Source of the DNA: a virus
IMG/VR virus record: IMGVR_UViG_3300025769_000800
Span: 1 to 24,712 of that record
Strand: one strand, 5' to 3'
Length of the DNA stretch: 24,712 nucleotides
Below the pieces are notes generated by a model. The model saw nothing but the letters and a program-made list of their open reading frames with translations, had not been told where the DNA came from and did not search any database. How positions within the stretch are numbered: position 1 is the first letter of the stretch; each line of letters opens with the position of its first letter. The position numbers and the translations under genes were made by a program. Positions 17,782-17,853 of the stretch are shown here, piece by piece.

Positions 17782-17853
17782 TTACTTATTAGCGATGTAC
17801 ATTGTTACTTCAAAACCAAAACGTACTTCTGTGTATTCAGGTTTAGACCACAT
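17782..17853 (-). CDS. pqqA: PqqA-like peptide, precursor of pyrroloquinoline quinone
   Basis: Twenty-three codons with a good AAGGAAA site. Residues follow PqqA: MW at 1-2, K4-P5, R11, G13, then FEVTMYIAN with E15 and Y19. The E-x-x-x-Y pair is the Glu/Tyr that PqqE joins and that becomes PQQ. From memory, the enterobacterial and pseudomonad PqqA peptides are also 23-24 aa with E15/Y19, and about half the residues coincide with Klebsiella PqqA. No pqqB, C, D or E is in the window, so the peptide would need host enzymes. It lies between the capsid terminator and the fibre gene, 9 bp from the latter, whose ribosome site overlaps this stop. It may raise host PQQ for quinoprotein dehydrogenases, or be a decoy or repurposed peptide. 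Confidence 0.85.
   Translation of the reverse strand: [23 protein letters not shown]

Follow-up and report, generated by a model that had tools for sequence, protein, structure and literature searches.

The window analysed here, i.e., the whole stretch of 24,712 nucleotides taken from an incomplete virus record (IMGVR_UViG_3300025769_000800), carries a gene for the precursor peptide PqqA within a phage structural gene cluster (Table 1). The context of this gene is viral, since capsid and tail fibre genes flank it and portal and terminase genes are also present in the window. The original prediction had placed a 23-codon gene between a capsid terminator and the tail fibre gene, with a ribosome-binding site of its own and a stop codon overlapping that of the fibre gene, and this arrangement is borne out on the minus strand by the gene boundaries and by the positions of both AAGGA motifs; comparable Shine-Dalgarno sites precede other viral pqqA genes among the IMG/VR pattern-scan matches listed. 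The anticipated terminator is a real terminator-like hairpin, with a short T-tract (CTTTTC). No sigma-70-like promoter was found between the capsid gene and pqqA in the window, so that pqqA is probably read from upstream. Searches of the window for tRNA genes and Rfam families returned none. Elsewhere in the window (positions 21-1811, plus strand) lies a B12-dependent (class II) ribonucleotide reductase gene, which matches over just a portion of the barrel domain and is either cut off at the window end or divergent.

Table 1. Features of the window around the pqqA gene and the evidence for each.
Feature	Position	Strand	Evidence
pqqA (23 codons + TAA, 72 bases)	17782..17853	minus (17853 -> 17782)	PF08042, TIGR02107, purifying selection in the lineage
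pqqA codons 15-19 (E-V-T-M-Y) with the Glu/Tyr pair that PqqE crosslinks	17797..17811	minus	sequence; Glu16/Tyr20 in Methylorubrum (PMC10906245)
Shine-Dalgarno AAGGA of pqqA, few nt 5' of ATG	17860..17864	minus	sequence
Shine-Dalgarno AAGGA of fibre gene, overlapped by pqqA stop TAA (17784-17782)	17779..17783	minus	sequence
Terminator-like hairpin 3' of capsid gene, 11-bp stem	17873..17899	minus	sequence; kept in relatives whether or not they have pqqA
Major capsid protein, next gene upstream of pqqA	17918..18862	minus	phrog_267 major head protein, E=8.4e-50; PF19821
Tail fibre (S74 chaperone domain), next gene downstream of pqqA	15682..17772	minus	PF13884, E=3.8e-18; tail-fibre PHROGs
Portal protein, SU10 type	20311..22329	minus	PF23899, E=5.9e-21; phrog_1216
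Terminase large subunit	22695..23966	minus	PF03237, E=3.1e-16; phrog_2

Judged by its sequence, this is a genuine PqqA gene. The profile-HMM check proposed for the predicted peptide gave scores of 43.1 bits (E=3.8e-11) with the Pfam PqqA model PF08042 (curated cut-off 21.1) and 48.2 bits (E=6.2e-13) with the NCBIfam equivalog model TIGR02107 (cut-off 20); the PHROGs database holds no PqqA family. Every position named earlier as part of a full PqqA signature is present in the translation (M1 W2, K4 P5, R11, G13 and E15 V16 T17 M18 Y19), including the E-x-x-x-Y spacing with three residues between Glu15 and Tyr19, and the motif has a single occurrence in the window compared with 0 in 100 shuffles. 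The 23-aa length is that of the beta/gammaproteobacterial type, host copies likewise having 23 aa. In length, sequence and Glu15/Tyr19 pair the window gene is alike to PqqA of Methylophilaceae, Methylophaga and betaproteobacteria, whereas it differs from bacterial PqqA in being phage-borne, in lying within a structural gene cluster and in having no detected pqqBCDE. The earlier statement that no further pqq gene is visible holds within the 24.7-kb window of this incomplete record, where searches found no PqqB, PqqC, PqqD, PqqE or radical-SAM proteins. Linkage to pqqBCDE, which is usual, not defining, for PqqA, was found neither in the window nor in the phage records tested.

Conservation of the locus was assessed in a lineage set of capsid-protein relatives fetched without regard to pqqA. 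The slot between the capsid and fibre genes is empty in L130, L134, L135 and L137 (the fibre gene starting 90-103 nt past the capsid stop), has pqqA as its sole gene in the window, L127, L128 and L129 (145-150 nt in the last three), and contains a small extra reading frame together with pqqA in L132, L143, L078 and L105. In another seven relatives (L140, L149, L163, L164, L183, L195 and L203) it is filled by an unrelated gene of 50-61 aa (M-x-F-K-C-K type), for which no Pfam match was found. Because the slot is empty, pqqA-bearing or otherwise filled among relatives, pqqA is a cassette at a variable site, and its absence from some close relatives indicates that the lineage can do without it. 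Where present, i.e., in seven relatives besides the window, it lies directly behind the capsid gene, and these eight copies yield a pN/pS of 0.13. When all fetched loci were scanned with a sensitive profile, no degenerate or frameshifted copy turned up in the lineage; thus, the frameshifts in related genomes that had been named as evidence against the original prediction were not seen, and retention in eight loci under purifying selection counts in its favour. The extra frame (MSWTDYCRKREIDNYKKQQLLKLRQRK...) found in four of the relatives has its own ribosome site, starts 116-122 nt past the capsid stop, lies 5' of and overlaps pqqA, and gave no Pfam match.

Beyond this lineage, a degenerate DNA pattern scan of IMG/VR, with each match translated, yielded at least 120 stretches encoding a 23-aa PqqA (an early regular expression forbidding internal Met gave only 15 loci and was dropped). 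E15 and Y19 are both fixed in the pattern of this first scan, and a second scan was therefore run with the two residues free; it largely overlaps the first and serves as a residue test, not as a measure of abundance. Among the viral loci listed from the free-residue scan, both E15 and Y19 are kept in 124/124, so that the loss of this pair in relatives, also named beforehand as contrary evidence, was not observed, and a stop at codon 24 in 124/124 makes every listed copy 23 codons long. Among the matches listed, a pN/pS of 0.27 is obtained for 110 distinct viral sequences over the codons that the first pattern leaves free. Many of the viral peptides match host PqqA letter for letter while their DNA differs; one such peptide is represented by 28 DNA variants that lie 1-9 nt away from the closest host copy fetched. 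Clustering of whole contigs by shared proteins produced one large mixed group, whereas grouping by the genes directly next to pqqA gave about 15 contexts for viral pqqA among the matches listed (single linkage, approximate, one large group of 76). A capsid gene adjoins pqqA in three of these contexts, belonging to unrelated families (phrog_267, phrog_371 and phrog_138). A recently caught host gene, kept by chance and of no benefit to the virus, would be one way to account for a cassette that comes and goes at a site where relatives have other small genes, but this explanation is largely refuted by the strong purifying selection in both the lineage and the wider set; with the number of neighbour contexts and the intact length of every copy (among the matches listed) also opposed to it, we regard it as extremely unlikely.

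The same gene is present in cultured phages. Only 12 of 50,697 annotated phage records have PqqA, the identical 12 being returned by three divergent PqqA queries: nine isolates of OM43/LD28 methylotroph phages (MEP301, MEP401, MEP402, Venkman EXVC282S, P19250A and four Melnitz phages), two Acinetobacter-phage records and one spring-water assembly. The Methylophilales phages MEP431-434 and Venkman EXVC038S are not among these matches and may be outside the record collection. The nine isolates were grown on methylotrophs, and their pqqA is never annotated as such; papers on MEP401/402 and Melnitz (PMC10580990, PMC9004378) do not report it. In Melnitz-1 (L005, 3998-4066), a 24-aa pqqA is covered by the annotation of a short hypothetical protein on the other strand. 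These OM43/LD28 methylophages share a 23- or 24-aa pqqA with the window while representing other phage lineages, with the gene at other genome positions. In some isolates pqqA runs opposite to both flanking genes, which means that late or capsid-linked expression does not apply throughout. No PqqE scored over the cut-off in 55 phage records, and neither PqqC nor a PQQ alcohol dehydrogenase was found in 39 phage records, six of them complete phage genomes; most IMG/VR contigs in these searches are fragments. A weak radical-SAM/PqqE-like match (27.7 bits, 385-aa frame) occurs in IMGVR_UViG_3300023110_001238, a 52-kb contig with pqqA (G022:C1:47246-47494).

Bacterial genomes with the same PqqA type are mainly Methylophilaceae and Methylophaga, with some other betaproteobacteria (among the matches listed). 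The nearest bacterial relatives of the window peptide among these matches, each identical at 21/23 positions, come from MAG TMED22 and a Rhodocyclaceae MAG; in TMED22, pqqA is followed by a PqqB-like gene (called from position and sequence rather than by profile search), pqqC and pqqE, and PQQ alcohol dehydrogenases are encoded as well. This betaproteobacterial likeness may be taken as a host hint rather than a host assignment, and 4-mer host prediction provided no usable signal for the window, the correlations being low and inconsistent even for phages of known host. Candidate host genomes carry PqqC, PqqE and PQQ alcohol dehydrogenases. In 27 bacterial genomes, chosen because they matched pqqA, the number of pqqA copies ranges from 1 to 12 (median 3), while full PqqE is present once in 23, twice in three and not at all in one; stand-alone pqqA copies occur in bacterial hosts too, Methylophilaceae among them. 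A range of 3-12 pqqA copies with a single pqqBCDE has been described for Methylophilaceae (PMC4109929). The highest count belongs to Methylophilales LSUCC0135 (L260), with 12 pqqA vs. one full PqqE, and L277 and L279 have three close copies.

In PQQ synthesis, PqqE acts with PqqD to crosslink Glu16 and Tyr20 of PqqA (Methylorubrum numbering), and a protease, PqqB and PqqC complete the cofactor (PMC10906245). We consider it quite likely, from comparative sequence data, that the phage gene is a functional pqqA serving as an auxiliary metabolic gene that supplies the consumed substrate of this pathway. In the proposed scheme, an infecting phage would translate PqqA, host PqqD would bind the peptide, host PqqE would join Glu15 and Tyr19 by a crosslink, and PQQ would be completed by the protease, PqqB and PqqC of the host. 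The pqq enzymes, as reusable catalysts, could outlast the shut-off of host transcription, and PqqA would be spent at one peptide per PQQ; because the enzymes are reusable and the peptide is consumed, PqqA would be the part worth carrying and the cheapest way to sustain PQQ. Hosts that multiply pqqA alone would follow the same logic as a phage supplying the peptide only. The added PQQ would maintain or raise the activity of host PQQ-dependent alcohol (methanol) dehydrogenases, providing energy until lysis, and from this scheme we infer the expression level, crosslinking of the phage peptide, higher PQQ, dehydrogenase activity, burst size and fitness gain. Viruses would, in this way, probably keep host methanol or alcohol oxidation going by supplying the used-up part. 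The substrate-supply role suggested by the original prediction is supported by the profile match, the E15/Y19 conservation and the intact lineage copies, with crosslinking and a rise in PQQ as its expected outcome. More broadly, its support consists of gene identity, selection, conserved reactive residues, no other pqq genes detected and the link to PQQ-making hosts. As is characteristic of auxiliary metabolic genes, the flanking genes are viral and the gene is a homologue of a host metabolic gene under selection, with peptides shared with hosts. An engineered Gluconobacter grew better and reached a higher product titre with additional pqqA or pqqABCDE (reviewed in PMC8102297).

Two other functions of the peptide were weighed against this role, and the conservation of both reactive residues together with the host-identical peptides would speak against each of them. 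An excess of phage PqqA could act as a decoy that occupies PqqD/PqqE, lowering host PQQ or sparing SAM and iron-sulfur capacity; a competent substrate can compete too, and expression could be high where pqqA adjoins a capsid gene. A decoy, however, need not keep both reactive residues, as all of the viral matches listed do, nor does it call for letter identity to the host substrate in so many viral peptides, and the multiplication of pqqA by the hosts themselves fits supply over inhibition, all of which leaves this option highly unlikely. Alternatively, the unmodified peptide or its crosslinked product could be a signal, a regulator or a defence-related agent, considering that regulators can be short peptides and that, in one study of ocean data, co-expression with defence systems was found for a PqqA-annotated peptide family (PMC11118758). 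Such repurposing is nevertheless very unlikely given that the precursor is conserved over its whole length, shows no drift toward a new consensus and is tightly linked to PQQ-making hosts.

Among the open-licence full texts searched, phage PqqA was described in detail once before, for the T4-like Baikal virus population VP_266, where it was proposed to aid methanol oxidation by a methylotroph (PMC7678222, 2020). VP_266 is T4-like and also encodes methanol dehydrogenase, whereas the window has pqqA alone, with an SU10-type portal and no PQQ dehydrogenase detected. In addition, pqqA is listed among viral genes in reservoir sediments (PMC13188868). Cyanophage psbA (D1) follows the same logic, with the phage providing a component of the host's energy machinery that is spent quickly (PMC2570332); the two are not homologous, D1 being a turned-over protein subunit and PqqA a substrate consumed for a cofactor. 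What the present analysis adds is the orphan form in the window lineage, the range of contexts over which it is spread, the finding that cultured methylophages carry it unnoticed, and the free-residue conservation test.

Taking these data together, we lean slightly towards the broader view that orphan pqqA is common in phages of PQQ-dependent methylotrophs, has been acquired repeatedly and has gone overlooked, and that it marks a real bottleneck, with PQQ and hence methanol oxidation in infected cells limited by the supply of the consumed peptide rather than by the enzymes. In oceans and lakes, the oxidation of methanol by bacteria such as OM43, LD28 and their relatives is an important one-carbon process. 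Should unrelated phage lineages keep pqqA alone, PQQ supply would be a point of viral control over this process, and pqqA would represent a type of auxiliary gene that delivers a consumed ribosomal substrate rather than an enzyme. Whether peptide or enzyme limits PQQ would then be testable in existing phage-host pairs such as MEP301/FZCC2181 or Melnitz/H5P1. It would also show that 23 codons can suffice for an auxiliary metabolic gene, and that annotation of published methylophage genomes can overlook such a gene.

The trait also reaches beyond methylotroph phages, as follows from the Acinetobacter-phage records, in which an unannotated PqqA of another type is encoded (CAKLQF020000010.1, 108210-108275; CAKLQH020000055.1, 419-484). 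PqqA of the alphaproteobacterial type was found in only five IMG/VR stretches (full listing of the pattern scan), and the putatively viral IMG/VR contigs L342, L343, L345 and L346 carry this type with the motif G-M-E-V-T-S-Y.
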